Source: Virgibacillus dokdonensis (GTDB lineage Bacteria > Bacillota > Bacilli > Bacillales > Amphibacillaceae). From it: a stretch of 64,000 nucleotides of DNA. Positions within the stretch are counted from its first letter, which is position 1; every line of letters starts with the position of its first letter. The notes beneath the pieces are model-generated. The model was not told the DNA's origin, searched no databases, and was given only the letters and a program-made list of their open reading frames with translations. The position numbers and the translations under genes were made by a program. The stretch lies in assembly GCF_900166595.1 (NCBI RefSeq), contig NZ_LT745763.1:3034986-3098985 (forward strand), written 5' to 3'. Shown here piece after piece: positions 4,065-31,929 of this stretch.

Positions 4065-4135
4065 CAAACGAATATTGACTATTCCCTCTCTATTCTTAAA
4101 GAGGGATTTAAAGATAAAACGGTGCATGATTCCAT

Positions 4136-4153: not shown

Positions 4154-4165
4154 CCGCATAAAAAT

Positions 4166-4185
4166 AGGTGAAATCGATTTCACCT
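4166..4185 (-). terminator. Palindromic terminator after scrR (or third ATCGAT operator)
   Basis: AGGTGAAATCGATTTCACCT is a perfect 20-bp palindrome directly after the scrR stop. On the minus strand it is followed by ATTTTTAT, so it can fold as a terminator hairpin with a TCGA loop. It shares the ATCGAT centre of the two operators, so a protein-binding role is also possible. Confidence 0.55.
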
Positions 4186-4188
4186 TTA

Positions 4189-5172: not shown

Positions 5173-5234
5173 ATAGCTATCCTCCCTACAGCAGTTCTGT
5201 TTACATTGTTTTTAATCTTTATGGCTTTAGAAAA

Positions 5235-5259
5235 ACACTACTTTTCTTTCCTGTAGTGT
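5235..5259 (-). terminator. Rho-independent terminator after the 228-residue ORF
   Basis: On the minus strand ACACTAC pairs with GTAGTGT across an 11-nt loop, followed by TTTTTC. It starts 22 bp past the stop at 5281. Confidence 0.7.
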
Positions 5260-5280
5260 AAAAAAATATCCGCACCTTCT

Positions 5281-10764: not shown

Positions 10765-10790
10765 TCATTTTGTGTTAGGAGGGAATACGA

Positions 10791-11990
10791 ATGGCAAAAA
10801 AATTTTTAAAACCTATTTTACAAGTAGCAGTGGCAACAACATTAATATTTAGTAGCGTTGCTCCTTCCTACGCTTCTGCTAGTGTAGCTGAAAATAATCA
10901 CCAAGCAGACAAAGTTAGTGACTTAGCCAATCAATATAAAAAATATGAACTAGGGCCAGAAGGACTAAGACAAGCACTCGAGACAACAGGATCTAATGCG
11001 CTGGTTATGGATTTATATGCTTTGACAGTTTTAAAACAGCCAGATATCAAGTTTACTAATGTTGTTATCATCGACAATAACTTACAAAATAAAATCATAT
11101 CTGATCAAAGTATTGCAAGAGAGAATGCAAAAGTATGGTTAGATCAATTAAAACCACAATTAATTAAAACGAATGAAAATATTATAAATTATGATAATCG
11201 TTTCGAAGGGTACTATGATAAGCTAATAGAAGCCGCAGAAAACAAAGATAAAGATGCCTTAGAAGCTAGAATAAAAAGACTATCGAGGAGCGTTTCCAAA
11301 AACAAACAAGAAGTCGACCAATTAATTGTCGATTTAAAAGAATACAGACAAAAATTACAGTCTGATACACAAAATTTAAAAGAAGATACAAATAGGCTTT
11401 CCTCTATTTTAACGGGCGAAGATGCAGGTATACCGCTTTTAAAACAACAAATTGAATCTTACCATGATGCGATTAGTAAATATAACAAAGTATTAATAGC
11501 CTCTTCTGTCTCTACATCATTAGGACCTATAGCTATTGCAGGAGGAATCGCTGTAATTGCTACAGGCGCAGGAACGCCACTTGGTGTTGCTCTTATAGCA
11601 GGCGGAACTGGACTAACTGGTGGAGGAATTACGGGTATTGTATTAGCCAAACAAGGAATTGATGAAGCAGAGTCAGAAATTAAATCTATAACCAAAGAAT
11701 TAACAGATACAGAAATTCAATTAGCGTTAGCAACAGGAATAAAACAACAGACGAATAATTTAACCAAGACGATTGATCTAGCAATTGACTCTTTACAAAA
11801 CATTTCAACGCAGTGGAGTACGATGGATGCAAAATATAGAAGTTTACTTAGCGATATTGATTTTATGAGTCCTGAAGACCTTGATCTTATTAAGGAAGAC
11901 TTATCTATTGCTAAAATGAGTTGGAGTAATATTCGAGACTATGCGCAAAAATTATATGTAGAAGAAATTAAAGTTGTCGATAATCAATAA
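10791..11990 (+). CDS. nheB: NheB-like enterotoxin component
   Basis: Secreted pore-forming subunit, 399 residues. Signal peptide of about 29 residues ending near YASA. LGPEGLRQALETTGSNALVM and DLYALTVLKQPDI closely match NheB. The membrane-active hydrophobic hairpin is intact (residues about 240-285: SLGPIAIAGGIAVIATGAGT, then a glycine-rich second strand). This supports a subunit that inserts into membranes together with the NheC-like partner. The C-terminus has YAQKLYVEEIKVVD, also NheB-like. Strong ribosome binding site TTAGGAGGGAATACGA. Transcribed with the NheA-like gene; an inverted repeat follows the stop. Confidence 0.9.
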   Translation: MAKKFLKPILQVAVATTLIFSSVAPSYASASVAENNHQADKVSDLANQYKKYELGPEGLRQALETTGSNALVMDLYALTVLKQPDIKFTNVVIIDNNLQNKIISDQSIARENAKVWLDQLKPQLIKTNENIINYDNRFEGYYDKLIEAAENKDKDALEARIKRLSRSVSKNKQEVDQLIVDLKEYRQKLQSDTQNLKEDTNRLSSILTGEDAGIPLLKQQIESYHDAISKYNKVLIASSVSTSLGPIAIAGGIAVIATGAGTPLGVALIAGGTGLTGGGITGIVLAKQGIDEAESEIKSITKELTDTEIQLALATGIKQQTNNLTKTIDLAIDSLQNISTQWSTMDAKYRSLLSDIDFMSPEDLDLIKEDLSIAKMSWSNIRDYAQKLYVEEIKVVDNQ

Positions 11991-12014
11991 AATGCAACTT
12001 AGGATATAAAATGA

Positions 12015-12061
12015 ACCAACAATCAGTCTAGGAGTTCATCCCTCCTTCACTGATTGTTGGT
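12015..12061 (+). terminator. 13-bp inverted repeat between nheB- and nheC-like genes
   Basis: ACCAACAATCAGT (12015-12027) pairs perfectly with ACTGATTGTTGGT (12049-12061) across a 21-nt loop, without a strong U-tract. From memory, the B. cereus nheB-nheC gap also carries a 13-bp inverted repeat thought to lower nheC expression. A partial terminator or processing hairpin is the likely role. Confidence 0.65.
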
Positions 12062-12120
12062 AGCTTAAACTTTTGCTTATACTTTAAAATCTAAAGAACG
12101 CTAACAAAACACGCAGTTCA

Positions 12121-12165
12121 TGCTGTAATCTTCCACTTAGATTAACCTAAAGGCAGATTACAGCA
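12121..12165 (+). repeat. Second inverted repeat before the nheC-like gene
   Basis: TGCTGTAATCT (12121-12131) and AGATTACAGCA (12155-12165) are an 11-bp perfect inverted repeat with a 23-nt loop, 30 bp upstream of the nheC-like start. Function unknown; possible operator or RNA hairpin. Confidence 0.5.
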
Positions 12166-12194
12166 CGTTATATTCGGAATAACAGGTGATAAAT

Positions 12195-13253
12195 ATGCAA
12201 ACCAAAGTAATGAAACAAATATTTATTTGCTCCATCATAACAACTTTTTTAGTAACCTATTCGTTACCACAAACAATGATTTATGCAGCTGAACAAACAG
12301 AAACAATGAAACCCGATTCAGAAAAGATAATAAAGAATTTAGAAGAATTGGCTACTAGTATAGCGAGTATAGACTCCTATGCAACAACTATCCAAAACGA
12401 ACCAAAACCCAATTTAACAAATTTAAATGCTGTAAGTGACAAATTAAAACGTAACATAAACAATCATTTTGCCGATGCTAAAAACAACGCTACGTATTGG
12501 ACAAGTAGTTTAAAGCCTTCCATGAACACATTTCTAGAAAGTATTGGACATTTTAACGATGTATTTCAAGAAAGGCATTCTACATTATTAGCTGCTTTGG
12601 AGAATAATGACAAAGAAAAGATACGTGCTGAGGTAGAACGGCTTAATGATAATATTGTAAGACAAAGCGAAAACGCAGAAAGATTAGTTAAAAATTTAAC
12701 CCAATTTCGAGATAATGTAACGAAGGATACACAACGTTTCAAGAACAATTCTAATCAATTAGAAGTCCAAACCATATCATCTTCACAGGCTGATATACCT
12801 CTTTTAAAGAGAAAAATTAATTATTATAATGATGTCATTGATAATACTGATTATAGAATAGCGGCTGGTTCATTAGCGTGCGCTTCCCTGATTGGCTGTA
12901 TTTGGGGAGGAATTGAGATTGATAACGCTACAAGTGATAAACGAGATGCAGAATATCAAATAGACAAACTTAAAGCAAAAATAGATGGGATTGAGAAAGA
13001 AATAGCTACGATAACAGACATACAAAGTAAACTAACAAATATGGTTCAAAAAATTGATACAGCTATCGATTCCATCCAAAATTTAACAAATTACTGGTAC
13101 CTCATGAACTCTAAATACCAAAACTTGCTGGACGATGTCCGTATATTAAATCCAGGAGAGTTAGATCTTTTAAGAGAGGATATGCAAATTGTAAGTAGAA
13201 GTTGGGAGCAAATTAAACAGTTTGCCAAAAACCTAGCTCAAGCATTAAAATAA
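12195..13253 (+). CDS. nheC: NheC-like enterotoxin component
   Basis: Secreted third subunit, 352 residues, with a signal peptide of about 29 residues ending at IYA. It is the most diverged of the three but follows NheC/NheB architecture: SIASIDSYATTIQN, an ADIPLLKRKINYYNDVI segment before a short hydrophobic hairpin (AAGSLACASLIGCIWGG, about 17 residues, shorter than in NheB), and a helical tail with IQNLTNYWYLMNSKYQNLL and EDMQIVSRSWEQIK. The ATG at 12195 was chosen because the GTG 9 bp upstream lies within the ribosome binding site AGGTGA. Separated from the NheB-like gene by 204 bp with two inverted repeats, so it is probably expressed at a lower level. Confidence 0.83.
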   Translation: MQTKVMKQIFICSIITTFLVTYSLPQTMIYAAEQTETMKPDSEKIIKNLEELATSIASIDSYATTIQNEPKPNLTNLNAVSDKLKRNINNHFADAKNNATYWTSSLKPSMNTFLESIGHFNDVFQERHSTLLAALENNDKEKIRAEVERLNDNIVRQSENAERLVKNLTQFRDNVTKDTQRFKNNSNQLEVQTISSSQADIPLLKRKINYYNDVIDNTDYRIAAGSLACASLIGCIWGGIEIDNATSDKRDAEYQIDKLKAKIDGIEKEIATITDIQSKLTNMVQKIDTAIDSIQNLTNYWYLMNSKYQNLLDDVRILNPGELDLLREDMQIVSRSWEQIKQFAKNLAQALK

Positions 13254-13318
13254 TACAATAGCACGATACACGTTTATTCCTATTAAAATATTTGATGTCA
13301 CTTTTATTACACATAAAC

Positions 13319-13339
13319 AGTGAGGGTTTTTCCCTCACT
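13319..13339 (+). terminator. Hairpin after the nheC-like gene
   Basis: AGTGAGGG-TTTTT-CCCTCACT, an 8-bp perfect stem with a T5 loop and no downstream U-run. Terminator-like, or part of the leader of the next gene. Confidence 0.4.
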
Positions 13340-13379
13340 TCAAAGTGGCGAAAAACAGAATGAAAGGAGAAAAACACAT

Positions 13380-13601
13380 ATGACATTTGAAGAAGTATTA
13401 CCTGAATTAAAATCTGGTAAGAAAGTGATTCGTAGTGGATGGAATGGCGCCGAAGTATATGTAAAGCTCGTTGAAGAAAGTAAGCACGATGGTGAAAAGC
13501 TTCATCCATACTTTTTAATCAATGTCTCTGGAGAAGGCTATACCATGTTCACCCCTACTGTATGTGATATTCTTGCTGACGACTGGACCATCATTGAATA
13601 A
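13380..13601 (+). CDS. DUF2829 / Tad2-like small protein
   Basis: 73 residues. MTFEEVLPELKSGKKVIRSG-WNG and the C-terminal TVCDILADDWTIIE are the conserved ends of the DUF2829 family. In phages that family includes Tad2, a protein that sequesters the Thoeris immune signal. ATG preceded by GAAAGGAGAAAAACACAT; a longer frame upstream has no ribosome binding site. It is compact with no membrane segment. Here it stands alone between the toxin operon and an SDR gene, with no phage genes in the window, so a host housekeeping or captured-phage origin is equally possible. The family match is from motif memory. Confidence 0.75.
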   Translation: MTFEEVLPELKSGKKVIRSGWNGAEVYVKLVEESKHDGEKLHPYFLINVSGEGYTMFTPTVCDILADDWTIIE

Positions 13602-13625
13602 TATGAATGTTTTTGGAGGTTGTAT

Positions 13626-14381
13626 ATGAAGTTTGATGAATATACAGGACAAACTGTTTTTATCACTGGTGGCGCTTCGGGTATAGGAAAAGCGCAAGCT
13701 GTCTGTTTTCTAAGAAATGGCGCTAATGTATTTGTCTTCGATAAAGAGAAAAAAAACGTAGCAGAAATGGAAGAACAATATAGCGGACAATTCACCTATG
13801 CGTTAGGAAGTGTTACGGATAAAGCGTCTGTCCAAAGAGCTGTGCAACACGCATTACATAAATTTGAACGCATTGATATTTTACTAAATACAGCGGGGAT
13901 ACTGGATGGATATGTAACTACATTAGAAACAGAAGAATGGTTATGGGATAAGGTTATGGACACAAATGTAAAAGGAACCTACCTTGTAACCAACGTCGTA
14001 CTTCCTTATATGCTTCAGCAAGAAAGCGGAGTTATCATCAACATGTCATCCATTGCAGGCTTTGTTGCTGGTGGCGGTGGTGCTGCGTATACTGCTTCTA
14101 AGCATGCCATTATAGGTTATACCAAACAATTGGATTATGACTATTGCAGAAAAGGAATTCGAGCTAACGCGATTGCACCAGGTGCGATTAAAACGCCAAT
14201 GAACAAAGCGGATTTTTCTGGAGATGGAAAAATCGCCGAATGGGTAGCGAATCAGACACCTGCTGGGAGATGGGCAGACCCCATAGAAGTAGGCGAGCTC
14301 ACGCTTTTTTTAGCAAGTAGGGCTGCTGATTATATGCATGGTGTCGTTATTCCTATTGACGGCGGATGGACCAATAAATAA
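13626..14381 (+). CDS. SDR-family oxidoreductase (FabG-like)
   Basis: NAD(P)-dependent short-chain dehydrogenase/reductase, 251 residues, cytoplasmic. Classical SDR motifs: VFITGGASGIGKAQA (dinucleotide-binding TGxxxGIG), LLNTAGILDG (NNAG equivalent), INMSSIAGF (catalytic Ser), YTASKHA (catalytic YxxxK) and IAPGAIKTPM. The C-terminus PIDGGWTNK is typical of FabG-like members. ATG after GGAGGTTGTAT, 24 bp after the DUF2829 gene, so the two may be cotranscribed. The substrate cannot be told from sequence. Confidence 0.88.
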   Translation: MKFDEYTGQTVFITGGASGIGKAQAVCFLRNGANVFVFDKEKKNVAEMEEQYSGQFTYALGSVTDKASVQRAVQHALHKFERIDILLNTAGILDGYVTTLETEEWLWDKVMDTNVKGTYLVTNVVLPYMLQQESGVIINMSSIAGFVAGGGGAAYTASKHAIIGYTKQLDYDYCRKGIRANAIAPGAIKTPMNKADFSGDGKIAEWVANQTPAGRWADPIEVGELTLFLASRAADYMHGVVIPIDGGWTNK

Positions 14382-15301: not shown

Positions 15302-15402
15302 ATAACTTATCATAGGGCAATGGAGTGAAGTCGCTATTCGGTTATTTCGTTATACTTAAGCACCTAATTTTTATACTTTCTTATCTTGAAACTAAGGCTC
15401 GG
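15302..15402 (-). repeat. Degenerate copy of the ~220-bp repeat (family R2) in the 15028-15506 gap
   Basis: CTTATCATAGGGC, TGAAGTCG, ATTCGGTTATTTCGTTAT and TTTTTATACTTTCTTATCTT follow the order of the full copy at 63074-63290, with an internal deletion. AAGGCTCGG, the sequence from the other end of the element, comes directly after it. The rest of the 479-bp gap holds the queT terminator and the upstream region of the TetR gene. Confidence 0.5.
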
Positions 15403-19682: not shown

Positions 19683-20402
19683 TTATTGCTTAGATTCTGA
19701 TTTTTTCTTTTTTTCCTCCTCTTTCACTCTTTCCGCCTGTATTAATAACCTTTCTCTGTCTGTTGGATACGGGTGACAGGTGAATAAAGTAGCTAAATCC
19801 CGATTTTTTTGAATTTCAAGTGGGTCCGTTTCATCAGGAGCAACCACTTGTTGACTGTACACACGATAAGTTAACGTATCGGTCATAGTATGGATATAGA
19901 AAATGTCACCATCGTTTAATTCATCGACATTACGAAACATGGCTTTCGTTCCCATACCTCGGTGCCCCGCTAAGACGGTATGATTGCTCTCACCACCAAC
20001 TGGCAATGATGAGCCTTCAATTTGCCCAATCCCTTTATCAAGGGTTTCTTCTGTAGCTCCTAAAAAAATTGGAATCATCTCTCCAAGTTTTGGAATTTCG
20101 ATAGCCGCAAACACTTCATCGTCGTCTATTCCAAGACAATTTTTAAATTCAGCCAGCTTTTCTTCATTATCAAGAAATGGATCACGAAAACCTGAACTAT
20201 CATAAAAGATTTCTTTATTACATGCAGAAGCTTTTTCCATAAGCTTGTTTATTTCCTCTTCGGGTTTTTCTTCTAAGTCAGCCTGAAATTGATCAACTTG
20301 TTGTTTTTGTAAGTAACTGTTGACGAGTTTGGCTGCATGCGGATATAAAAAAATCAGAATACCTGCTACAAATAATAAGATGATTGCTTTTTTTCCCTTC
20401 AT
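19683..20402 (-). CDS. Class C sortase (pilus type), second copy
   Basis: Membrane-anchored transpeptidase that joins LPXTG pilin subunits, 239 residues. An N-terminal anchor (residues 4-22) is followed by the class C lid motif DPFLDNEEK, HTVLAGHRGMG (catalytic His), TLFTCHPYPTD (catalytic Cys in TLxTC) and RERLLIQAER (catalytic Arg). Its start overlaps the end of the upstream sortase by 4 bp. The C-terminus lacks the second membrane helix present in its neighbour and ends in a charged KEEEKKKKSESK tail. One of the two enzymes may polymerise and the other add the tip or anchor; which does which is unclear. Confidence 0.88.
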   Translation of the reverse strand: MKGKKAIILLFVAGILIFLYPHAAKLVNSYLQKQQVDQFQADLEEKPEEEINKLMEKASACNKEIFYDSSGFRDPFLDNEEKLAEFKNCLGIDDDEVFAAIEIPKLGEMIPIFLGATEETLDKGIGQIEGSSLPVGGESNHTVLAGHRGMGTKAMFRNVDELNDGDIFYIHTMTDTLTYRVYSQQVVAPDETDPLEIQKNRDLATLFTCHPYPTDRERLLIQAERVKEEEKKKKSESKQ

Positions 20403-21241
20403 GAGCCTTCCACCTTATTCTTTTTTTTACGACGTTTCAACCACCAAACAAGAATTAAAATTACTAATAGGCCTGCACCACCTGCAATATACCAATAGTT
20501 AAACGTATCGGTTACTTCTTCTGTTTCTTTCGCCTTTGATTCATCATAGGGTACTCGCTTTCCTTTCACTAGCATCCGGTGAGTATTCAACATATAAGGT
20601 TCACATGTTAATAATGTCATGTATTCTTCATTATCTTCTGTCTGTAGCCACTGCGTTTCATGTGGAAGAACAATTTCTACATCATACACTTCATAAGCAT
20701 ATTTTTCGTTCAACACATTAACATAGAATTGATCTCCTTTGCCAAGCTCATCTAAATTACGAAATAATTTCGCACTAGGCAGACCTCGATGAGCGGTGAG
20801 TACGCTGTGAGTCCCTTTTTCTCCTGTAGGTAAGGAAGAATTCTCCATATGCCCCACACCACGTGATAATACATCTTCCCCAGTGCCATGATAAATAGGC
20901 AGGTTTGAACCTATTTTAGGAATCTCGATACTTCCAATTGCTGGGTCAATATTTAGTGCATCGTAATAACTTTTATTTCCAGCTGCCTTATTTCCCTCCG
21001 CCCCTTCTTCTGAGAAAGGATCAACAAAATCGACTTCGGAATTCTCCAATTTTTTATTATGTTCAGCTGCTTTCTTTTTTTCTTGTTTAATTTCCTCTTC
21101 ATCCATGTTTTCAACTGTCTCAGCATATTCTTTTACTACAGATTGATGTACTTGTGTCGATAAAATGTTACTTATTATAGGATAGGAAAAGACACCCAAT
21201 CCAACTAAAAATATGATAATAATTATTACTCGCTTCATCAT
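20399..21241 (-). CDS. Class C sortase (pilin polymerase)
   Basis: 280 residues with membrane segments at both ends (residues 3-22 and about 248-268), the usual class C layout. Lid DPFSEEGAEG, His in SVLTAHRGLPS, Cys in TLLTCEPYMLNT, and Arg in THRMLVKG. Transcribed after the backbone pilin with a terminator-like hairpin between them, and overlapping the second sortase. It probably forms the isopeptide bonds between the YPK-motif lysine of one pilin and the LPTTG threonine of the next. Confidence 0.9.
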   Translation of the reverse strand: MMKRVIIIIIFLVGLGVFSYPIISNILSTQVHQSVVKEYAETVENMDEEEIKQEKKKAAEHNKKLENSEVDFVDPFSEEGAEGNKAAGNKSYYDALNIDPAIGSIEIPKIGSNLPIYHGTGEDVLSRGVGHMENSSLPTGEKGTHSVLTAHRGLPSAKLFRNLDELGKGDQFYVNVLNEKYAYEVYDVEIVLPHETQWLQTEDNEEYMTLLTCEPYMLNTHRMLVKGKRVPYDESKAKETEEVTDTFNYWYIAGGAGLLVILILVWWLKRRKKKNKVEGS

Positions 21242-21371
21242 TTTCCCTTCCTATCGTAAATAAATTTTATACTATTGAATGTATTTCACTACAATGGAAA
21301 TTATGTTTAGCTTATAGATCAAAAAAAATTAAAAAAAATGATTATTCCTTAGAAAAATATGTAACATGGAA

Positions 21372-21402
21372 AATAGGAGAAAGAATAATTCTCTCTCCTA
21401 TT
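21372..21402 (-). terminator. Terminator between backbone pilin and sortases
   Basis: AATAGGAGA pairs with TCTCCTATT across a 13-nt loop 16 bp after the pilin stop, with TTTCC downstream on the minus strand. Read-through may set the pilin-to-sortase ratio. Confidence 0.6.
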
Positions 21403-21417
21403 CAACCATTCTTCTAA

Positions 21418-23274
21418 CTAAGCAATAGCTTCTAGCTTTCTACGACGGAAATATAGTGCAAGCGCCATTCCCATTAACGTTAAACCAATAAGTGTGAAAA
21501 TAATCGTTCCAATACCACCTGTTGTTGGTAGTTCCCAAAGTGACTTCGAGTTTTCAACTTCATAACTCAACTCTTTATTATTTTCTACTTTTACTTCTAC
21601 AGGTTTTGATAGTAAACGATATGGCTTTTCTTCACCATTTTCTGTAGTATACGTGGGTGCTTTTGTTTCATGAAGCTGATACGTTCCTGGTGTGAGACCA
21701 GTAATAGAGAATGTACCATCTTCTCCAGTTACTAAGTTTTCTAATTTGCCATTGAATGCTTCTCCGTTTACTTTAACGACTTCTCCAGCATTAGATGTGT
21801 CAATGACATTACCATCCATATCTGTTAATTTAAACTCTGCACCTTTTAGTTTTACATTGTTATCAGAAGCATCCACTTTAATAACGTCTATACCACCTTC
21901 TGTAGGTACTACTACTGGTGGTTCTTCTGGATTTGGTGGTTCTATTGGTTCTCCTGGTTCATTTGGTTCATCTGGATCTTCTGGATCGTATGGCTCGTAT
22001 GGGTCAGGATTGTCTGGATCAGCTGGTCTTGTGTAAGATCCTTTATTGTTATTGAAATGAAGATCAGCCGTATTTTCAATGCCGATTTCGCCTTCTTTTA
22101 ATTCGGCATCCGGTTTAATTTTTGCTGTAAACGTAATTTTAACGTCCTCACCAGGGGTTAATTGACTCGGATCTTTAATTTCCCAAATTAATGTTTGGCC
22201 TTTTTGCTTAAAATCAACATTGGATTTATTTGTACCTTCAATCTTCCATCCACCATCAATACTACCTTCAGAAACAAACTCTAGACGTTCATCTAAAGTA
22301 TCTGTCACACCAAGTGCTTTATATTTGTTAATATCTTTTGGTGTTTTAATTGTAAGGTTGTACTTATATTCTTTATTACGATCAAAATCCAATTTCTTTT
22401 CGCCATTAGCATCCTTGTCAATTTCAGGAGTATTATAGTTTGTTACTACTCCATTTTCATCGACAATTCCATCGACTGTCGTCCACTCTACTACTATATC
22501 TTGTAAATTTTCTCCAGCTTTTTTAACTTCAAATGGAATTCTGGTTGTATTTAATGCATATCCTTCTGGAGCTTTCGTCTCTTGGAAATAATACTTTCCT
22601 TGTGCTAAACCATCCACTTTAATTTTTCCAGCTTCATTTGTTGTTAGTTCCCCAATCTCATTTCCTTCTTTATCTACAGCAAGGGTACCGTCTTCGTTAT
22701 ATAAGATAAAACTTACACCTGGTAGTGGATTTCCATCTTCATCCTTTTTCACTATTTCCACAGCAGAACGAACGGTTTCATTTTTTGGATATACATGGAC
22801 ATCGTAATTTAATGTAGTGCGATCTTTGTTCGTCATTGGGATATCAACAAAAAATGGATCTGGATTTAAAATAACATTTGCAGGTCCATCTGTTTCAGTA
22901 ACTTCATAACGACCTAGCTCTAATTCATCTGCTTTGGTGAAAACGACTATTCCATCTTCGCCAGTTTGTTTTTCAATCGTTTTTCCATCAGCTACCTCTG
23001 TCCACTTATCTGTTTCCGAATTATATTGATGTGTTTGTTTTAACGTAAATGTTACCCCTTCAACTGGATCTCCTTCTGCATTTTGGCCAGGTAAACCTGT
23101 TCCATCTTCACCAGGTGCTGTTCCAGGTTCTTGTTCGAACTTATGAATTGTTAATGACGGATTGTCCTCATCCCCTTTTATTTCCTTGGCAAATGCTGCC
23201 TGTGGAAGTAACAAGGATACAATTAAAGTAAAGATTAATGCGATGTTTATTTTCTTTTTTTTCGTTACGTTCAT
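21418..23274 (-). CDS. SpaA-type backbone (major) pilin with LPTTG anchor
   Basis: 618-residue secreted surface protein. Signal peptide (about residues 1-29, ending AFA) and pilin motif VHVYPKNET near residue 160, whose Lys is the likely linkage site. Two CNA-B type repeats carry E-box motifs YYFQETKAPEGYAL and YQLHETKAP, which support internal isopeptide bonds. A D2-type fimbrial domain spans the middle (YKYNLTIKTPKDINKYK), followed by a Pro/Asp/Glu-rich spacer (DPDNPDPYEPYDPEDPDEP). At the end ELPTTGGIGT, a hydrophobic helix and RRRK form the sortase sorting signal. The gene sits between the tip adhesin and two sortases. Confidence 0.92.
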   Translation of the reverse strand: MNVTKKKKINIALIFTLIVSLLLPQAAFAKEIKGDEDNPSLTIHKFEQEPGTAPGEDGTGLPGQNAEGDPVEGVTFTLKQTHQYNSETDKWTEVADGKTIEKQTGEDGIVVFTKADELELGRYEVTETDGPANVILNPDPFFVDIPMTNKDRTTLNYDVHVYPKNETVRSAVEIVKKDEDGNPLPGVSFILYNEDGTLAVDKEGNEIGELTTNEAGKIKVDGLAQGKYYFQETKAPEGYALNTTRIPFEVKKAGENLQDIVVEWTTVDGIVDENGVVTNYNTPEIDKDANGEKKLDFDRNKEYKYNLTIKTPKDINKYKALGVTDTLDERLEFVSEGSIDGGWKIEGTNKSNVDFKQKGQTLIWEIKDPSQLTPGEDVKITFTAKIKPDAELKEGEIGIENTADLHFNNNKGSYTRPADPDNPDPYEPYDPEDPDEPNEPGEPIEPPNPEEPPVVVPTEGGIDVIKVDASDNNVKLKGAEFKLTDMDGNVIDTSNAGEVVKVNGEAFNGKLENLVTGEDGTFSITGLTPGTYQLHETKAPTYTTENGEEKPYRLLSKPVEVKVENNKELSYEVENSKSLWELPTTGGIGTIIFTLIGLTLMGMALALYFRRRKLEAIA

Positions 23275-23358
23275 TTAACTTCTCCTCTCATTAATCACAC
23301 ATGAATAATCTTATTTTGATGTTTATAAACATATATAGCTTTAAAATACATCATTACC

Positions 23359-26097
23359 TTAAAGCGTATTTTCCGTAGATGTTATTTGTTCTTTGGATGT
23401 TTGATCTCTTCTTTTTTTTCGTATAAACAGGAGAATGGCTACTAACATTAGCCCAACACCCGATCCATAAAATAGTAACGTTCCAATCCCACCAGTGTCT
23501 GGCAAAATCCAACCGTTTTTACTATTTTCTACTTCAATCTCTTCATGAAGGTTTTCGGCAGAAATTTCTACATGGATAGGATTATTTAGCAAACGGTAAC
23601 CTTCTGGAGCCTTTGTTTCTGTTAGTTCATACTCCCCCCACGACAATTCTTTAAATTCTGCTATACCCGCTTCATTCGTTTCTTGAGATTCTACTATTTC
23701 TCCATTAGCATTTTTTAATTCAAAAGTCGCTCCTTGTAAAGTTTCACCGTTTTCATCCACTTTTTGAACCGTTAATGTTCCGAGTTCTTGCTTGTATATA
23801 TAACGGACAGTCTGCGGATCTTTTTGGAACTTTCCAGTTGCCGGAGCACCTTCCTCGTCTACTTTTACAAATGTATATCCTGAAATATCCTTTTGCTTCG
23901 TCGTGTATGTGTCACCAAGTTTACCAGTGAAAATTTCATTGGAGGCTATCTTATTGCCTTCTTCATCCACATATTCTGCAGTGACATCACCAGCAATCAG
24001 ATCCGTTTCTTTCACGTAACCAAACCAAACCTTTTCTATTGGATTATCTGCTTTTAAACTTACACGTGTTGGGTTTTCACCTACATGCAATGTATAATCA
24101 GTCACATCATTTGCTGTTACTTGATACGTTTCATTAAACTTTAATTCTTGCTGATCATTTTCTTGATGGGCTTCTTCATAAAATTGCTCTGCTAAGGATG
24201 GATCAGAAACGACATTACCATTCTGGTCAATCGGATCTCCGTCCACATTTACACGATAACCCTTTTTAATAATTTTTCCTTTATCAATTCCTGCTTCTGG
24301 AATTGGAAATGGTTTTGTTTGCGGGTCGCCATTTGGATCCGTATAATTTAGCGGTGTATCTTTGTTCGTTGGATATCGTTCATTTCCTTTTGGGTTTTTA
24401 TCCCAATCAATAGTCACCTTGTACTTTAACGTGTACGTTTCATTCTCCTTAATATCACCTATATCCCAAGTAAACGTTTCTTTTGCTTCATTCCAATTTA
24501 CTTCTCCATGACTTGCTGAAAAGTTTTTGCCACTGTAACTGCCATCTTTTACGAGGTTGAACATGTCTCCCATTGGGTCAGTTACAACACTATTACTTGC
24601 TGCATAGTGCGACAAATCTGCACTAATTTCAGTAAAAATCTGTTGTAATTCATCTTCCGTTCCTTCATAGTAACCTCTGTTTTGGCTATTTTTTAATACA
24701 TATATTGCTTCTTCGTAATCGCCCACATCTATGCCGATGGAATATATATCGTTGCCAGAAGTCATAATCTGAACTGCTTCAGAAAGAGTTGCAATTCCAT
24801 TTGTTCTGACTCTGAACCCATCAAGCCAATATGATTCCCATCCTAAGTAGTAAGATGCTCCAGAACCAATTAGTTCATTATAATTAAAATCAGAGAGCAT
24901 AAAGTTATATCTATTATTCGGCCATGTATACCCCTCTGCCTTCCCCGCTCTAAAACTAAAGGTCGGTTCACCATCACTTAAAAGGACAATCGTTTTTCTG
25001 TCTGCATTACTTCTATTCAGTAATTGTTTTGCTTTATGGAGACCTGCCTGGATATTCGTTGCTCCATCTGGTCCTCCAGTTACACGGATTCGTTCAATCG
25101 CCCTTTTCAATACTTGTTTTTCGCTATGGCCTTTAAAATCCACATGTCTGTCTGCTTCTGTACCAAACGGCACTAACGCTATTCTAGTCGTTGCATCTTC
25201 TGTTAAAAGATTTTCAACAAACTGTTGTGCAGCCTGTTTAGCTTTATGAACACGACTCCCATACATCGTATTAGAACGATCAAATAATAAAACAACATCT
25301 GATTTTTGTTTTAAATTTTTTCCTTGAGCCGTTAATTCTATCTCCCATTCTCCATACTCATCAGTTGATTTTGCCTCTTTTAATAACTTTAATGAGCCTG
25401 GATTTGGCCAGTTTGTATTTATTTTTGCCATATATTTTGCAGGTGTAGTATACGATGGATACTGCTGTTGCTGCCCCTGTTGTTTTATAGAATCTTTATT
25501 TTCAGCTTCTGGTTTTACTGCTTCTTTTTTATTTTTTTCTTTTTCTTCATTCTTTTCTTTTTCTACTTTATTTTCCGATGTTTCTTTGTTCTGTTTTTTC
25601 TTCTCAGGTTTCGAACTATCCGGTACTTCCTTTACTTGAAATGAATAATCCTCTTCGAATACTACATTTCCATCTAACTTTCCAGTAATAGCTAAAGCGT
25701 TATGAGATTGTTCCAGATTACTTAAAACAAACGCTATTTGTTGCTCGGGTACACCTTTTTCCCCTTTAAGCGTTAACACGTGTTTTTTAGCATTGTAATC
25801 TAAAGTAGCTCCTTGTTGTATAGAACGCGTCTTTTCCTCATCATACGTAGCCCCTTTTGGCAGTTTGATTTCAAGCATACGAAATGTGGAAAATTCCGCC
25901 TGAACTTGCACAACTACACCCTCTGTAGTTGCCTCCTGATTTGTAAGAATATCTAAGTACGGATCTTTATCGTCTACCTCACCTCCAACTATTGTAGATG
26001 TAAACCCTTGTAGCACGAGTACCATAACAATAAAAAACAAAACTACTTTTTTACGAAGAGTTTTTAGTATCAATCTGTTCCCTTCCCTCCTTTCCAT
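23359..26097 (-). CDS. VWA-domain pilus tip adhesin with LPDTG anchor
   Basis: 912-residue surface protein, predicted pilus tip or minor pilin. Signal-like hydrophobic N-terminus (residues 17-37). A charged low-complexity stretch (KKKQNKETSENKVEKEKNEE, about residues 160-205, ending in a glutamine run) precedes a von Willebrand A domain with MIDAS residues VVLLFDRSNTM and LLSDGEPTF. Farther on are a MucBP-like module (EYVDEEGNKI, YTFVKVDEEG) and a CNA-B domain with ELTETKAPEGYRLL. The sorting signal is ILPDTGGIGT, then a helix and RKKRR. First gene of the pilus operon. The ligand is unknown. Confidence 0.9.
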   Translation of the reverse strand: MERREGNRLILKTLRKKVVLFFIVMVLVLQGFTSTIVGGEVDDKDPYLDILTNQEATTEGVVVQVQAEFSTFRMLEIKLPKGATYDEEKTRSIQQGATLDYNAKKHVLTLKGEKGVPEQQIAFVLSNLEQSHNALAITGKLDGNVVFEEDYSFQVKEVPDSSKPEKKKQNKETSENKVEKEKNEEKEKNKKEAVKPEAENKDSIKQQGQQQQYPSYTTPAKYMAKINTNWPNPGSLKLLKEAKSTDEYGEWEIELTAQGKNLKQKSDVVLLFDRSNTMYGSRVHKAKQAAQQFVENLLTEDATTRIALVPFGTEADRHVDFKGHSEKQVLKRAIERIRVTGGPDGATNIQAGLHKAKQLLNRSNADRKTIVLLSDGEPTFSFRAGKAEGYTWPNNRYNFMLSDFNYNELIGSGASYYLGWESYWLDGFRVRTNGIATLSEAVQIMTSGNDIYSIGIDVGDYEEAIYVLKNSQNRGYYEGTEDELQQIFTEISADLSHYAASNSVVTDPMGDMFNLVKDGSYSGKNFSASHGEVNWNEAKETFTWDIGDIKENETYTLKYKVTIDWDKNPKGNERYPTNKDTPLNYTDPNGDPQTKPFPIPEAGIDKGKIIKKGYRVNVDGDPIDQNGNVVSDPSLAEQFYEEAHQENDQQELKFNETYQVTANDVTDYTLHVGENPTRVSLKADNPIEKVWFGYVKETDLIAGDVTAEYVDEEGNKIASNEIFTGKLGDTYTTKQKDISGYTFVKVDEEGAPATGKFQKDPQTVRYIYKQELGTLTVQKVDENGETLQGATFELKNANGEIVESQETNEAGIAEFKELSWGEYELTETKAPEGYRLLNNPIHVEISAENLHEEIEVENSKNGWILPDTGGIGTLLFYGSGVGLMLVAILLFIRKKRRDQTSKEQITSTENTL

Positions 26098-26395: not shown

Positions 26396-27655
26396 TTAAT
26401 TAATTGATCTTTTAAGGCCATATGTTTCTGGGGTAATATCATTAACTTTTGGGATTCGACGTAATTCTGATAAGATCAACCACACAAATGAAATGGAGAG
26501 CATACCGACACCTCCGATAGCAAATATAATTTGCCCACCGAAAACAGATCCTAGTGTACCACCAATTAAAAAACCTAGAGGCATCGTTATAGAAGACAAG
26601 CTTGTAATAACTGAAAAAACCCTTGCTAGTAGTGAACTTGGAATAATACGTTGCCCTGTTGCTGATAGTAGTACTTGTGTAGCACCAAGTGGTATCAGTG
26701 ATATTCCATACACAATGACAGCGGGTATATCCCATGGAAGAAATGCAGAACTTATCCAAAGTAAGGCACTAAACAAATAAGTTACAATCATCGTCTTGCC
26801 TAGTGGAAAAGCACCGACAACGGAGCTTAATAGTGCTCCAATTAAGAATCCAGCAGAAAATGCACCCATAAGAAATCCATAGGTAGTAGATCCTCCACGA
26901 AAATCTGCGTAGACAGGCATTACCGCCAAAGCGATACCGAAAGAAAAGTTAGCAATAATGGTAGCAATAAAAAACTTACTTATAATGGATTGAAAAACAT
27001 ACTGGAATCCTTCCTTTAGGTCTTTTCCATACTTTTGAAACGCCTCCGTCAGTTTTTGTTTTTCTTGTTTTTCTTTTTCATACGTTTTTAAGACGGGCAA
27101 TGTCCAAAATAAAAGCAGCGCCACCATAAAAACAATAGAATCTAACAAATAAATGCTAACAGCACCAACTATACTTATAAGTACTCCAGCAATGCCATTA
27201 AATGTCATATCAATACCCTGATTAGCAAAAGAAAAAAGAGAATTACCTTTCACCAACTCATTTTGCTTCAATAACTTTGGCAATGCAACCATTTGAGCTG
27301 GATACGAGAATTGTTGAATGCAAGATATAACTGGCATAATGATAAGTACCATCCAGACATTTAAATCTCCGGTGTAGTGAGCGATTGGTATAATAAGCAC
27401 AAGTATAATTTGACATACTTGTGTGATTATTAAAGTTTTTCGCAAAGACCAGCGATCGATAAATGGTCCAGCCAGAAATTGAAAAACATCCGGAATTCTT
27501 GTCAAAAACCCAGCTAATCCAGTATAAAACGCTGAATGACTTAACTCATACACCAACCACATTGCTGCAATAGCATACATACTATCACCAATATTTGAAA
27601 CGATCTTCCCTAAGAAAAGCTTGGTAAACGATTTGTTTTTTAAAAGTATCCACAT
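26396..27655 (-). CDS. MFS exporter of the E1-like/peptide locus
   Basis: 419-residue 12-helix major facilitator of the EntS/macrolide-efflux type: GKIVSNIGDSMYAIAAMWL in helix 1, then FLAGPFIDRWSLRKTLI (the MFS loop 2-3 motif). A charged central loop (LKTYEKEKQEKQKLTEAFQK) separates the halves. Last gene of a same-strand group: peptide, E1-like enzyme, acyltransferase, MFS. In microcin C, MccC is an MFS exporter of the finished compound, so export of a modified peptide with self-protection is a reasonable guess. The ribosome binding site is weak. Its specificity is unknown. Confidence 0.88.
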   Translation of the reverse strand: MWILLKNKSFTKLFLGKIVSNIGDSMYAIAAMWLVYELSHSAFYTGLAGFLTRIPDVFQFLAGPFIDRWSLRKTLIITQVCQIILVLIIPIAHYTGDLNVWMVLIIMPVISCIQQFSYPAQMVALPKLLKQNELVKGNSLFSFANQGIDMTFNGIAGVLISIVGAVSIYLLDSIVFMVALLLFWTLPVLKTYEKEKQEKQKLTEAFQKYGKDLKEGFQYVFQSIISKFFIATIIANFSFGIALAVMPVYADFRGGSTTYGFLMGAFSAGFLIGALLSSVVGAFPLGKTMIVTYLFSALLWISSAFLPWDIPAVIVYGISLIPLGATQVLLSATGQRIIPSSLLARVFSVITSLSSITMPLGFLIGGTLGSVFGGQIIFAIGGVGMLSISFVWLILSELRRIPKVNDITPETYGLKRSIN

Positions 27656-27859
27656 CGAAAAAACCCATTTCTACTAATAAAATGAACCTTCGATCAGTGG
27701 TATTTCCCCCCACTAACTGAAGTAAAACCATTACTAAAATTATAGTCTCCCTTAAAAAAGAAATAATATTTTTTAAGGACGATGAATTACTCCCCACTAC
27801 CCATGTTTTTATAAATAGAATATTTCATAGAGAATATCTTTTTATAAATCCAAGGTTGT

Positions 27860-28747
27860 CTACTCTATTAAATGATCCCAAAGCCATTGCTCAGGATTTT
27901 TAGCGATCCATTCTTCTCCTTGTGCAAATAAGTGTTGTAGAAAGGTGGACTGAGATAATGCGTTGGGATCAAGACTATCTCCAACCATGAAACGAACTTT
28001 GTTTTCCTCTTCATTCCAAATAGAACCCAGAGGATATACTTTTGCTGACAGACGCTTGGCAAGCACATAAACACCAATTGGTGCTTTAAATGTCCCACCT
28101 AAGAAGGGCACTTCCTCTTCTTCTTGATTAATACCATATGAAAACTCTGGGAAAATAATACCCGTTGCTCCCCTCATAATAGCTTTAGTAAATTTTAAAG
28201 GGCTTGTATGTGAAGGTACAGGAACCATATCTATGGAATCACTGTATGATGCTTCAAGATATGTAGACATCCATTGCTGAATGATATCTATTTCATCACT
28301 ATTTACGAGTATTGTTGTTTTATCGAAATAACGTGTAACTAACGGCATGGACATCGTATGCATACCCATATGAAATGGAGCAATGATAATACGATTTTTA
28401 GAATGAGCGGGTTCTATCGATTTTAATAATCGATCACTCTCCGGTTCAATGATCTGATCATATTGTTTGTTGTATAGGGACAAGGACAAGTAGGTCCAAG
28501 CAGATTTTCTTTTTTCTGCAAATAAACTATAAGCATGACTAATTTCCTCAGCGCTTTGGTTCAAAGCGGGAAATGACTTGATCACAGGTACATATTTCAA
28601 TGGATTTAGTGTATTCGAATTCATGTCTGTTTCAACAATGGTTTTCAAAAAAAGATCTGCTAATTGTTGCTCTTCTTTTTTTTGAAAGGGGATATTCTTT
28701 AAAATAGAGTGAAATTGCAACAAATTATTAAAGTTTAAGATTGACAT
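27860..28747 (-). CDS. LpxL/HtrB-type acyltransferase homologue
   Basis: 295 residues. Resembles the lipid A acyltransferase family (LpxL/HtrB): IIIAPFHMGMHTM near residue 126, GIIFPEFSYG, VPFLGGTFKAPIGVYVLAKR and the C-terminal NPEQWLWDHL, equivalent to the family PEQWLW. The classical HxxxxD/E catalytic pair is altered: His126 is present but Thr131 stands at the acid position (His130 precedes it). There is no N-terminal membrane helix. Gram-positives lack lipid A, so it presumably acylates something else, perhaps the product of the neighbouring peptide locus. Strong ribosome binding site AAGAAGGAGGTCATAAC. The gap before it holds an R2 repeat. Confidence 0.75.
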   Translation of the reverse strand: MSILNFNNLLQFHSILKNIPFQKKEEQQLADLFLKTIVETDMNSNTLNPLKYVPVIKSFPALNQSAEEISHAYSLFAEKRKSAWTYLSLSLYNKQYDQIIEPESDRLLKSIEPAHSKNRIIIAPFHMGMHTMSMPLVTRYFDKTTILVNSDEIDIIQQWMSTYLEASYSDSIDMVPVPSHTSPLKFTKAIMRGATGIIFPEFSYGINQEEEEVPFLGGTFKAPIGVYVLAKRLSAKVYPLGSIWNEEENKVRFMVGDSLDPNALSQSTFLQHLFAQGEEWIAKNPEQWLWDHLIE

Positions 28748-28767
28748 GTTATGACCTCCTTCTTTTT

Positions 28768-29042
28768 TTAAGAGATAAGAAAGTATAAAAGATGCTATGG
28801 GATAACCAAATAACCCAATGAGCCACGTTCAGCTCCATCGCCCTGCAACTAGGCAACTTCACGAATCGCCCTACGCTAAGTCATCATCGGTTCGTGCTAA
28901 TAGGAAGGAAGACTAAAAACGGGCTTGCCTTAGTGCATCGACATACCTCTGTTTTAGTGGCATGATTCCTAAAACTTTAGTTGATTCGCTCCACTCGCTA
29001 CGTTGCTAAACGGGCGCCCTGAGCCTTTGTTCACTAAAAGAA
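28768..29042 (+). repeat. R2 repeat (~275 bp, with an internal insertion)
   Basis: GAGATAAGAAAGTATAAAAG, GATAACCAAATAACCC, AGCCACGTTCAGCTCCATCG, ACTAAGT-type segments, TCATCATCGGTTCGT and CGTTGCTAAACGGGCGCCCT match the copies at 53216 and 63074 (the latter inverted). About 50 bp in the middle are unique to this copy. It fills the gap between the acyltransferase and E1-like genes. Confidence 0.75.
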
Positions 29043-29083
29043 ATTACATACACTTTACTATACACAGTCAAGCATACTTAAAC

Positions 29084-30172
29084 TTATTTCATAAAACTAG
29101 GATAGGACTTTGGTATATTCGCACACCAATCACAATTTTCATTACGTGAACCTGGTCTCCATTTGAATTTTCCAGTTTCTAAATCAAAATCACCCATTCC
29201 ATTCACAAGTAAAGGCCTTGTTAAATTAGTAATAACAGCTACTGTATCCGAGATGATAAAACTTACAAGAATTTGTATCAGCGGATTAAAAGAACCAGAA
29301 ATGCCACGGATATGTTGATAAACACTATGCATATCTTTTCTCTCCACCAGCGAATCGTAACATTTCCAACACCCAGTTACTCCCGGAATTACAGTTGTAC
29401 CTGTACTAGTAGAATGACCATGATAGCCACCTCCAACAATATGCGCAATATTGTTCTTTGTAAGATGGGGCGTGATCCAATCAGCTAATGTATCTACAGA
29501 AGGCTCATCGGCACATAATATAACAACCGAGCATGTTTTAAGTTTTTCTAAAATGTTTGCAGAAATATCTTGGGTGATAGGGTCATGCACAGTTTCTATT
29601 AACGTTCCATATCGATGATGTAATATATTTTTTAAAACGTTTACTTTCAATTCACCAACAGTGTTTTTAGGATACAATGATTGATGAGTTAAATTGTGAG
29701 TGCTTACATTATCATGATCAATTAGAATTAGGGAGGGAATTCCCATTGCCGCTAACTCATGAGCAACTCTGCTTCCAACGCCTCCCACACCAATGATTCC
29801 TACTCGGCTTGAACACCATGCTCGTTCACTGTCTAATAGCTGATCAAGCGAGGATGTTTGTGCAGCAAGATAACTCCACAATCTACTTTCTCCTGTTAAA
29901 TTCCAAGGTTGATTACCAGTTAACAAGATTTTATCATTTACTAGAGTTTGTAATGTTTCTACTAGCATTTCTTTTGTAATTTCATTTTGTTCTCCCCAAA
30001 CGAGAAGTTCTTCAAAATTTCGCGGCTGTTGTAAATAGGTTAAAAAATTTATAAATACACTCATACTTTCATATACAATGGTTTCTGAACGGTTTAACAA
30101 TCTACAGATAATTTGTCCCTGTTCCGTTTCTTCTACCTGAACATCAGGCTGTTTTAACCAATATGTCGACAC
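29084..30172 (-). CDS. E1-like adenylating enzyme, MccB/ThiF type
   Basis: Predicted to activate a peptide C-terminus with ATP. The N-terminal about 95 residues (TYWLKQPDVQVEETEQGQII onward) look like a winged-helix peptide-recognition (RRE) domain, as in MccB and PaaA. The Rossmann loop VGIIGVGGVGSRVAHELAA starts near residue 124, LILIDHDNVSTHNLTHQSLY is the ATP/Mg region, and two CxxC pairs (GCWKCYDS and CDWCANI) would bind zinc. The usual Arg of the SNLxRQ motif is replaced by His (NLTHQ). The GTG at 30172 follows GGGGGGATTGTA; an earlier TTG lies inside the hairpin. A 15-codon gene and hairpin lie just upstream, as in mccA-mccB. No YcaO partner is present. Confidence 0.8.
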   Translation of the reverse strand: MSTYWLKQPDVQVEETEQGQIICRLLNRSETIVYESMSVFINFLTYLQQPRNFEELLVWGEQNEITKEMLVETLQTLVNDKILLTGNQPWNLTGESRLWSYLAAQTSSLDQLLDSERAWCSSRVGIIGVGGVGSRVAHELAAMGIPSLILIDHDNVSTHNLTHQSLYPKNTVGELKVNVLKNILHHRYGTLIETVHDPITQDISANILEKLKTCSVVILCADEPSVDTLADWITPHLTKNNIAHIVGGGYHGHSTSTGTTVIPGVTGCWKCYDSLVERKDMHSVYQHIRGISGSFNPLIQILVSFIISDTVAVITNLTRPLLVNGMGDFDLETGKFKWRPGSRNENCDWCANIPKSYPSFMK

Positions 30173-30193
30173 TACAATCCCCCCGTAAAAAGA

Positions 30194-30226
30194 AGCCAAT
30201 TCATTTGTAGAATTGGCTTCTTCACT
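30194..30226 (-). terminator. Hairpin (attenuator) between the 15-codon gene and the E1-like gene
   Basis: On the minus strand AAGAAGCCAATTC, loop TACAAAT, GAATTGGCTTCTT, then TTTAC: a 13-bp stem with a short U-tract. It starts 5 bp after the small gene's stop and ends just upstream of the E1-like start, so most transcripts would contain only the peptide gene. Confidence 0.8.
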
Positions 30227-30230
30227 TTAA

Positions 30231-30278
30231 CTAGCATTTTTTTGTCCCAGAAGTATAGCGATCCACGCACTTAATCAT
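30231..30278 (-). CDS. Candidate precursor peptide, 15 residues (MIKCVDRYTSGTKKC)
   Basis: Very short ORF with unusually good expression signals. The ribosome binding site AAGGTGGTGG stands 5 nt before the ATG, a promoter TTGACT-17-TATAAT lies about 30 bp upstream, and a terminator-like hairpin follows directly. The product MIKCVDRYTSGTKKC is polar, with Cys at position 4 and at the C-terminus. Microcin C-type precursors are equally short and are followed by a hairpin and an E1-like gene, but they end in Asn. I infer that this is the substrate of the E1-like enzyme. It could instead be a leader or regulatory peptide. It is not known to me as a described family. Confidence 0.65.
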   Translation of the reverse strand: MIKCVDRYTSGTKKC

Positions 30279-30309
30279 TTCTACCACCACCTTGTTATTA
30301 TTCATAGAA

Positions 30310-30338
30310 ATTATAATATATTAGAAAAAAATAGTCAA
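30310..30338 (-). promoter_or_regulatory. Near-consensus SigA promoter of the 15-codon gene
   Basis: On the minus strand TTGACT (30338-30333), 17-nt spacer, TATAAT (30315-30310). The expected start of transcription leaves a leader of only about 25 nt. Confidence 0.85.
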
Positions 30339-30720: not shown

Positions 30721-31854
30721 TTAATGAGAAAATACTTTTCTGCCTGACTTCCATGAGTTGTACCATCCAACAATATCATTGTTTGGGAGCACTCCTACTT
30801 CAGTTTTTAAGTAGCTTTTCAAATATTCATACTGTTGATGCACATGCGCAGGATTGTTTTCAAGTGCATAAATTTTCATTAAAGCAAAATGAGCACTTTC
30901 TGTTTCTGGGATAATTTTACATATATAACTATACCATAGTTTTGCTTCAGCCATATTTTGATTCTTTTGATAAAATGCCGCAATCTCCAAAGCTTTCGTC
31001 AACCAAATCTGCTCCCAATAATATCGTTCTGACTCTGCCCACCAAAAGTCATATCCCTGTAGATATGCACCTCTGTATAAGAACAATACTTGAATATAAT
31101 TATTAACGGATGTTTCATTCAAAGATGGTAGCGTTTTAATTTGTTCTTTCCATTCTTCAAAATCTAAAATAATATTCTCTGTTTCTAAAACGTAGCCATC
31201 AGAAACATTTTGTAATCTCAAATGTCTATGATACTTTCTCAGTGTTTTTCTTACGTAATAAATTGTTGTATACAACAATGAATTGGCTCTTTCTAATGCT
31301 AGGTCAGGCCAAAGTAGCTCAATTAAAAATGATTTTCTGACCATTTTCCCTCTATGATGTAATAAATATAAAAATAATTCCGCTGCTTTTTTCGTTCTCC
31401 AGGCAACAAATTCACGTTTCCCTTTAACCGATTCAACCGAGAATTGACCGAGCACATTTACATAAAGTGGTGAATTTTTTTCAATTGTAGATGACTGTAA
31501 ATTATTATCTATTCGTTCAACTGTTTTTTTCAAACGTTCAGGTGGAATTGGCTTAACTAGATAATCGATTGCATTAAGCTCAAATGCCTTTACAGCATAT
31601 TTATCATAAGCAGTCACAAAAACAATAAGTAAGTTTGGCTTATCTTTTAAAACTTTTTCAGCCAAACGAATACCATTCATTTCCGGCAACCCTATATCTA
31701 AAAATATTACGTCCACGTCCTCTTTAAGAATAGTTTTATGTGCATGGATAGGATTAGTTATTTTACCAATAACATACATTTTACTAATCTTTTTGAGCTG
31801 TTGTTCCAAATAGTCTAAAGCCGATTGTTCATCATCCACAATAATAGCCTTCAT
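30721..31854 (-). CDS. SARP-type response regulator (receiver plus BTAD)
   Basis: Transcription regulator of 377 residues. Receiver domain (1-120) has acidic pair VDDE, phospho-acceptor Asp53 in IFLDIGLPEMNG, and DYLVKPI. An OmpR-type winged helix follows (about 135-220: VNVLGQFSVESVKGK, WRTKKAAELFLYLL, LIELLWPD), then a bacterial transcriptional activation domain of TPR-like helices (to the end). The ATG at 31854 follows GGAGGAATTATT. No histidine kinase is adjacent. SARP regulators often control specialised metabolites, and this one lies about 440 bp upstream of the peptide/E1 genes on the same strand. Control of that locus is an inference. Confidence 0.85.
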   Translation of the reverse strand: MKAIIVDDEQSALDYLEQQLKKISKMYVIGKITNPIHAHKTILKEDVDVIFLDIGLPEMNGIRLAEKVLKDKPNLLIVFVTAYDKYAVKAFELNAIDYLVKPIPPERLKKTVERIDNNLQSSTIEKNSPLYVNVLGQFSVESVKGKREFVAWRTKKAAELFLYLLHHRGKMVRKSFLIELLWPDLALERANSLLYTTIYYVRKTLRKYHRHLRLQNVSDGYVLETENIILDFEEWKEQIKTLPSLNETSVNNYIQVLFLYRGAYLQGYDFWWAESERYYWEQIWLTKALEIAAFYQKNQNMAEAKLWYSYICKIIPETESAHFALMKIYALENNPAHVHQQYEYLKSYLKTEVGVLPNNDIVGWYNSWKSGRKVFSH

Positions 31855-31929
31855 AATAATTCCTCCATCCATTCAAATTATTTTCACCATTTCCATACTT
31901 TATCAACGATTTCTAAACAAAAACTAAAA

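Follow-up and report, generated by a model that had tools for sequence, protein, structure and literature searches.

A Virgibacillus gene cassette predicted to make a Cys-ended, E1-activated and possibly acylated mini-peptide

A 64,000-nucleotide stretch of Virgibacillus dokdonensis DNA (assembly GCF_900166595.1, contig NZ_LT745763.1, positions 3,034,986 to 3,098,985 of the forward strand), hereafter the window, harbors a cassette of four genes that appears to be devoted to a ribosomally synthesized and post-translationally modified peptide (RiPP). An earlier note, made from the sequence of the window alone, had reported a promoter, a ribosome binding site, a short open reading frame (ORF) and genes for an E1-like enzyme, an acyltransferase homologue and a major facilitator superfamily (MFS) protein. 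All of these were found again, and all are on the minus strand:

30310..30338, minus strand: promoter-like site TTGACT-17-TATAAT (promoter scan, 11 of 12 matches)
30284..30293, minus strand: ribosome binding site AAGGTGGTGG, near-identical across the Virgibacillus and Bacillus chungangensis loci
30231..30278, minus strand: 15-codon putative precursor ORF MIKCVDRYTSGTKKC, stop included (upstream ORF search and homologous loci)
30189..30223, minus strand: 14-bp hairpin ending in a T run, between the precursor and E1 genes (fold compared with shuffles)
29084..30169, minus strand: MccB-like E1 (ThiF family) with an RRE-like N-terminal domain, 361 amino acids, GTG start at 30169
27860..28747, minus strand: LpxL/PatA-fold acyltransferase homologue, 295 amino acids, with a conserved His126, Thr in place of the acid of HX4(D/E), and a PEFS motif
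26396..27655, minus strand: putative MFS exporter, 419 amino acids (PF05977, 91.4 bits; TIGR00900, 173.8 bits, below cut-off)

The hairpin proposed previously is real, but it has 14 pairs rather than 13 (−19.9 kcal/mol, z = −5.3), and none of 200 dinucleotide shuffles was equally stable; the terminator scan did not list it. Among the 30 ORFs of 10–22 codons in the window that are led by a Shine–Dalgarno site, MIKCVDRYTSGTKKC is the only one that ends in Cys and also the one with the most stable fold in the 55 nt downstream. Thus, the combination of short ORF and hairpin is more than chance. The TTGACT-17-TATAAT sequence was the top-scoring of 22 promoter-like sites in 5 kb, a scan that by itself proves nothing, as shuffled DNA yields a mean of 19.4 sites. 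The same sequence, or a version with TATACT, lies 60–61 nt upstream of the ORF in all six Virgibacillus and B. chungangensis loci, and the pattern was not found in three of the nine loci scanned (L041, L043 and L071).

The order peptide, hairpin, E1, acyltransferase and MFS is the same in all eight loci in which the E1 gene is linked to an LpxL-type gene, with the MFS gene 3′ of the acyltransferase gene in every case; these loci hold six distinct peptides and come from Virgibacillus and three Bacillus lineages. The sequence MIKCVDRYTSGTKKC occurs in the window and in L003, MVKCVSRITSDNKKC in L004 and L040, MVKCVKRYTSGNNKKC in L005 and L045, MVKHVKVYFADNKKC in L006, MVLVSTEKQGDTKKC in L041, and MEFKLIEIKSEAKTCDANC in L043. 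Each acyltransferase-linked ORF (eight loci, six peptides) has 15–19 codons, a Shine–Dalgarno site, a hairpin downstream and Cys as its last residue, the C-terminus being KKC in seven loci and NC in one. When one locus per distinct peptide was folded, a hairpin was present 3′ of the ORF in seven of seven (z from −2.4 to −7.9). The earlier note had offered as its own test that a short ORF with a conserved C-terminus should precede orthologous E1 genes, and such an ORF precedes E1 in eight of the eight acyltransferase-linked loci.

As a comparison, we looked for Shine–Dalgarno-led ORFs of 8–40 codons within about 600 bases upstream of E1 genes. A Cys-ended ORF of this kind was present in 8/8 acyltransferase-linked loci as against 2/41 E1 loci without the acyltransferase, a control set in which tandem E1s are counted separately and many loci have just 1.1–1.5 kb of upstream DNA; any qualifying ORF was present in 14 of the 41. 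The acyltransferase profile had no match in 11–16 kb from 18 of the control genomes. One of the two Cys-ended control matches, in G617, looks real and was scored as a control match before its gene neighborhood was examined, and the other, MRFSWWYSFTRGFGC in L009, about 550 bases upstream of a tandem E1 pair, is taken as chance. Codon differences between closely related precursors (synonymous to non-synonymous) were 6:5 for the window and L004, 7:3 for the window and L005, and 2:0 for L004 and L040, and the L005 precursor differs in length by one whole codon; these close-pair differences would indicate constraint on the peptide itself.

The best sequence match of the window E1 in the PDB is MccB, and the fold match spans both domains. 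Lys175 and Asp221 are invariant in nine alignment rows, where they align with the corresponding Lys and Asp of MccB. Judging from fold and residues, the enzyme presumably adenylates the α-carboxylate of the peptide, and the choice of carboxylate, that of the C-terminal Cys, is the mechanistic step that we would propose most strongly. An E1 acting on the L005 peptide could activate nothing but the C-terminus because MVKCVKRYTSGNNKKC contains no Asp or Glu, as compared with one to four acidic residues in each of the six other distinct peptides. Like ThiF-like (TLAT) RiPP loci in general, the cassette encodes an RRE-E1 fusion with a short, conserved precursor and a transporter as neighbors. Two traits of the E1 that had been singled out before hold in part: the His of NLTHQ is invariant in nine of nine rows of the window clade, but the more distant enzymes of G223 (NLNRQ) and G617 (NLERQ) keep Arg, and the two CxxC pairs are present in the window E1 but not in that of L041 (P0008 row).

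The acyltransferase homologue matches PF03279 at 43.8 bits (cut-off 22.3), is the genome's sole match to that family (E ≤ 0.001), and has a PatA/LpxM fold; its G223 homologue scores 47.0 bits. To our knowledge, the host bacteria have no lipid A. Unlike LpxL, LpxM and PatA, the homologues here carry Thr, Ser or Gln where those enzymes have Asp or Glu, have PE(F/V)S in place of the PDQ-like motif, and are encoded next to the gene for a peptide-activating enzyme. Loss of the HX4(D/E) acid would be consistent with an acceptor that is a thiol or an amine and not the hydroxyl of a sugar.

Genes for acyl carrier proteins (ACPs) occur in two more distant Cys-peptide loci. In G223 an ACP gene (PF00550, 28 bits, cut-off 20.8) is located inside the operon, between the hairpin and E1. 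The G617 neighborhood comprises an ACP-like ORF, a ketosynthase gene (PF00109/PF02801), MVLEMVSIINRIELADKCC behind AAGGAGGTG, a hairpin, and genes for E1, GNAT, MMPL, DUF1360, MFS and AcpS (holo-ACP synthase) proteins; with its shorter start, the ACP-like ORF reaches 19.7 bits with PF00550, just below cut-off. The acyltransferase profile had no match in the 20 kb examined in G617. Searches of 37 loci with either ACP, the ketosynthase or AcpS as query gave no match at E ≤ 0.01 outside the query loci. The ACP genes would strengthen the idea that the peptide is acylated. A motif search further picked up ORFs in L013 and L076, both with DSLS, and one in L074 that looks like an ACP. By eye, the L074 region (8885–14000, G234) contains, on the strand opposite E1, an ABC transporter gene, the ACP-like ORF (MKVEVDFVAEE...) and YcaO/oxidase-looking genes, possibly another ACP-linked peptide cluster.

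The cassette is rare. Among 5.8 billion proteins, a word-limited search returned eight E1 homologues at E ≤ 1e-10. Within the genus of the window, five of eight genomes, its own included, have the E1 (G000, G001, G002, G006 and G007; E of 3e-191 or better) and three are without it; the E1 gene was found on contigs of Virgibacillus chiguensis, V. proomii, Bacillus chungangensis, and a record called Roseburia sp. 1XD42-34. The organism name of this last record (L005, NZ_QWLJ01000002.1) looks wrong. More distant relatives are those of G187 (38–40% identity) and G223 (26–27%). A protein search with the E1 matched 32 of 295 related genomes at E ≤ 1e-10, mostly distant E1s, and an alignment search at E ≤ 1e-25 matched 3 of 398 genomes from the phylum and, within the order, 14 of 397, the window's own genome included. 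Searches by family gave the query genome and no other: the G223 E1 in one of three genomes of its family, and the acyltransferase profile in one of three for G187 and one of 34 for B. chungangensis. The profile was not found in the 80 genomes of the G294 family or in the seven of the G691 family. As for mobile carriage, an E1 relative was present in none of the 15 viral-contig stretches that matched a pattern, no acyltransferase match was found in plasmids or phages, and the plasmid E1 relatives were all below 60% identity, with none spanning 80% of the query. Rarity may explain why genome mining has not described the cassette.

We consider it somewhat better than an even bet, with a probability of roughly 0.57, that the four genes make a ribosomal, modified mini-peptide that is adenylated by the E1 at its C-terminal Cys, acylated from acyl-ACP and exported by the MFS protein. 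The hairpin and the ribosome binding site suggest that a short transcript stopping at the hairpin would yield an abundant 15-residue peptide, with part of the transcription reading through into the enzyme genes, as in microcin C operons, in which, according to one report, the mccA–mccB terminator boosts the mccA transcript relative to the enzyme genes (PMC6495379). The N-terminal clamp of the E1 would then grip the peptide and the enzyme would use ATP to adenylate the α-carboxylate of the Cys, as its fold and residues suggest, after which a nucleophile would capture the activated end. Conservation of the Cys could be explained by participation of its own thiol or by recognition by the enzyme; thiol capture of a C-terminal O-AMP made by MccB is documented for a changed MccA (PMC13255007). 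Next, the LpxL/PatA-type protein would attach to the peptide an acyl group delivered by an ACP, presumably the housekeeping ACP in the window clade and a dedicated one in G223; in G617, the part of the LpxL-type acyltransferase would fall to the product of the ACP-like gene together with the ketosynthase and the GNAT. Finally, the MFS protein would export the product, perhaps an antimicrobial or signaling lipopeptide. We infer all of this, from translation through adenylation, acyl transfer and export to the product itself. In a variant that we consider quite unlikely, the E1 would instead load the peptide as a thioester onto the phosphopantetheine arm of an ACP, and the LpxL-type protein (in G617, the ketosynthase) would transfer or extend it to create a peptide–fatty acid hybrid, joined by C-terminal loading rather than by N-acylation.

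On the evidence of sequence comparison, the best reading is that the cassette is a new variant among ThiF-like RiPP pathways and not microcin C. It shares with mccABC a very short precursor, a hairpin between precursor and E1, an MccB-like E1 with a peptide clamp, and an MFS exporter. It differs in that the precursors here have 15–19 residues and end in Cys, never in Asn (nine loci, seven distinct peptides), and in that it includes a PF03279 acyltransferase homologue, which scores above the family cut-off; the Cys C-terminus and the acyltransferase thus do set the locus apart, as had been proposed. Since the conserved C-terminal residue is Cys, the Asn-based N–P chemistry of microcin C is ruled out here. 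GRC RiPPs, in which GrcB makes a Glu–Cys thiolactone, also combine a ThiF-like E1 with a Cys-ended precursor, but theirs has 39 residues, and the L005 peptide offers no side-chain carboxylate to activate. A thiolactone of the GrcB type was therefore rejected for L005, whose peptide has no acidic residues. The radical SAM feature of GRC loci was absent from the window cassette, the G223 operon, 14 more window ORFs, and the ORFs flanking the cassettes of L006 (six) and L004 (four). Enterofaecin (EnfB) and Ind (IndF) share the RRE-E1 fusion and what we take to be C-terminal carboxylate activation; unlike them, the present peptides lack the WWIVI or NWYFI C-terminal motif and are accompanied by an acyltransferase homologue, and the precursor is shorter than EnfA (21 residues). 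In acylated RiPPs such as goadvionin, an acyl-ACP-derived chain is placed on the N-terminus of a ribosomal peptide by GNAT-type transfer. The cassette differs from these in its E1, its LpxL-type protein and its conserved C-terminal Cys; G617 has a GNAT gene, so that the GNAT route may be applicable there.

The reactions that ThiF-like E1s carry out on short peptides vary widely, and few of these enzymes have been characterized (PMC12250964, PMC12150305). Among the described classes that we compared (microcin C, pantocin A, GRC and enterofaecin from the accessible portion of PMC12250964, with pantocin A by name only, and Ind from that of PMC12150305), none has both a Cys-ended mini-precursor and an LpxL-type acyltransferase, and the review text of PMC12250964 contains no mention of LpxL, lipid or Virgibacillus. 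Literature searches, judged by titles and abstract openings in an open-licence library without supplements, turned up no account that pairs an E1 of the ThiF-like kind with an LpxL-type acyltransferase. The cassette is minimal, with four genes and a very short precursor, and separate branches of the E1 tree are tied to acyl-transfer genes. If the proposal is correct, it would offer a compact, testable ribosomal lipopeptide system and a new C-terminal E1 reaction.

Several observations weigh against the acylated-peptide reading. The acid of HX4(D/E) is gone in 11 of 11 A3 alignment rows (nine Thr, two Gln), with Ser in L041, and E or D is kept in the G995/G996 homologues aligned with them, of which four distinct ones are readable (three other rows are off-frame ORFs); an acyltransferase homologue without the canonical acid might have no activity, or might act instead as a condensing enzyme or immunity factor. 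The window clade has no ACP gene in its cassette, the G617 ACP-like ORF is below cut-off with its shorter start and has no Pfam match (E ≤ 0.001) with its longer one, and the ACP-like ORF of L074 (G234), on the strand opposite E1, indicates that proximity of ACP and E1 genes is not confined to these loci. The window E1 has His162 (in NLTHQ) where MccB has Arg. In a tree of weak resolution, the G223 E1 does not cluster with that of the window, so that the two systems may have separate origins; the outgroup closest to the window clade there is the G617 E1 (93/89, not starred, long branch). The Shine–Dalgarno ORF rule was set after the first peptides were known, and precursors from distant pairs differ mostly by non-synonymous changes (synonymous to non-synonymous, 6:8 for the window and L006 and 1:10 for the window and L041).

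Loss of the dyad acid would also suit a product that is not acylated at all, in which Cys15 is adenylated and an internal group (a Lys, the N-terminus or its own thiol) or a free amine attacks to create a cyclic or amidated peptide, as with EnfB, IndF and GrcB, leaving the acyltransferase homologue for membrane adaptation or self-immunity. Cyclization or amidation is the usual outcome of known ThiF-like RiPP enzymes (PMC12250964, PMC12150305), and the acetyltransferase MccE provides a precedent for immunity (PMC12250964). Nevertheless, the only nucleophiles at positions shared by the seven peptides are the N-terminus and the final Cys, L006 has no Ser or Thr and G223 no Lys among its last five residues, and the ACP, ketosynthase and AcpS genes at related Cys-peptide loci suggest acyl transfer, so that we regard an unacylated product as rather unlikely. 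A Trojan horse like microcin C, in which the nucleotide would be left on the C-terminal Cys as a mimic of cysteinyl-adenylate, is very unlikely: the mccA-hairpin-mccB-mccC layout is matched and, among solved relatives, MccB comes closest in both sequence and fold, but the N–P bond is made through the side-chain amide of Asn (PMC12250964), a residue found at the end of none of the seven distinct peptides, and the cassette proteins belong to the ThiF, Lip_A_acyltrans and MFS families, with none of the MccD, MccE or MccF kinds.

We think it more improbable still that the short ORF is a regulatory leader peptide, translation of whose KKC codons would govern termination at the hairpin and hence expression of unrelated enzymes. 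Attenuators do have this layout, with a short ORF ahead of a terminator-like hairpin, and the L041 leader folds better than leaders shuffled by single bases once the 3′ arm of the hairpin is blocked (z = −2.2), but the other five of six loci had no competing fold (z from −0.3 to +1.3), and on this count an attenuator was rejected. Moreover, the final residue is kept despite differing hairpin sequences, and peptide binding is typical of E1s shaped like this one. Ties of the E1 to thiamine, molybdopterin or YcaO pathways, which the earlier note had named as speaking against its proposal, were absent among the Pfam-scanned ORFs (18 from the window, six from L006 and four from L004). The earlier reading of a C-terminally activated and possibly acylated mini-peptide is thus supported, with activation and acylation as its putative steps.

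Finally, we note some features in and around the cassettes. In L041 (G187), a peptidase M3 gene (4098–5798, minus strand) lies 3′ of the MFS gene and has a possible role in leader removal or immunity. In the window, a dispersed repeat occupies 28764–29033, between the E1 and acyltransferase genes; further copies lie near 53217–53428 and 63070–63285 and, in part, at 15314–15386. The repeat looks to have been inserted into the operon, because the E1 and acyltransferase genes overlap in B. chungangensis. A response regulator/BTAD gene (30721–31872) was rejected as a member of the system: by eye, the ORF lists of L004, L040, L045, L006, L041 and L043 show none ahead of the cassette, although L003 has one. 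The neighboring genes at 19683–26097 constitute a sortase-dependent pilus operon with a VWA tip adhesin, a SpaA-type major pilin and two sortases, and a thiamine pyrophosphate riboswitch (RF00059, 72 bits) is located at 63329–63423.

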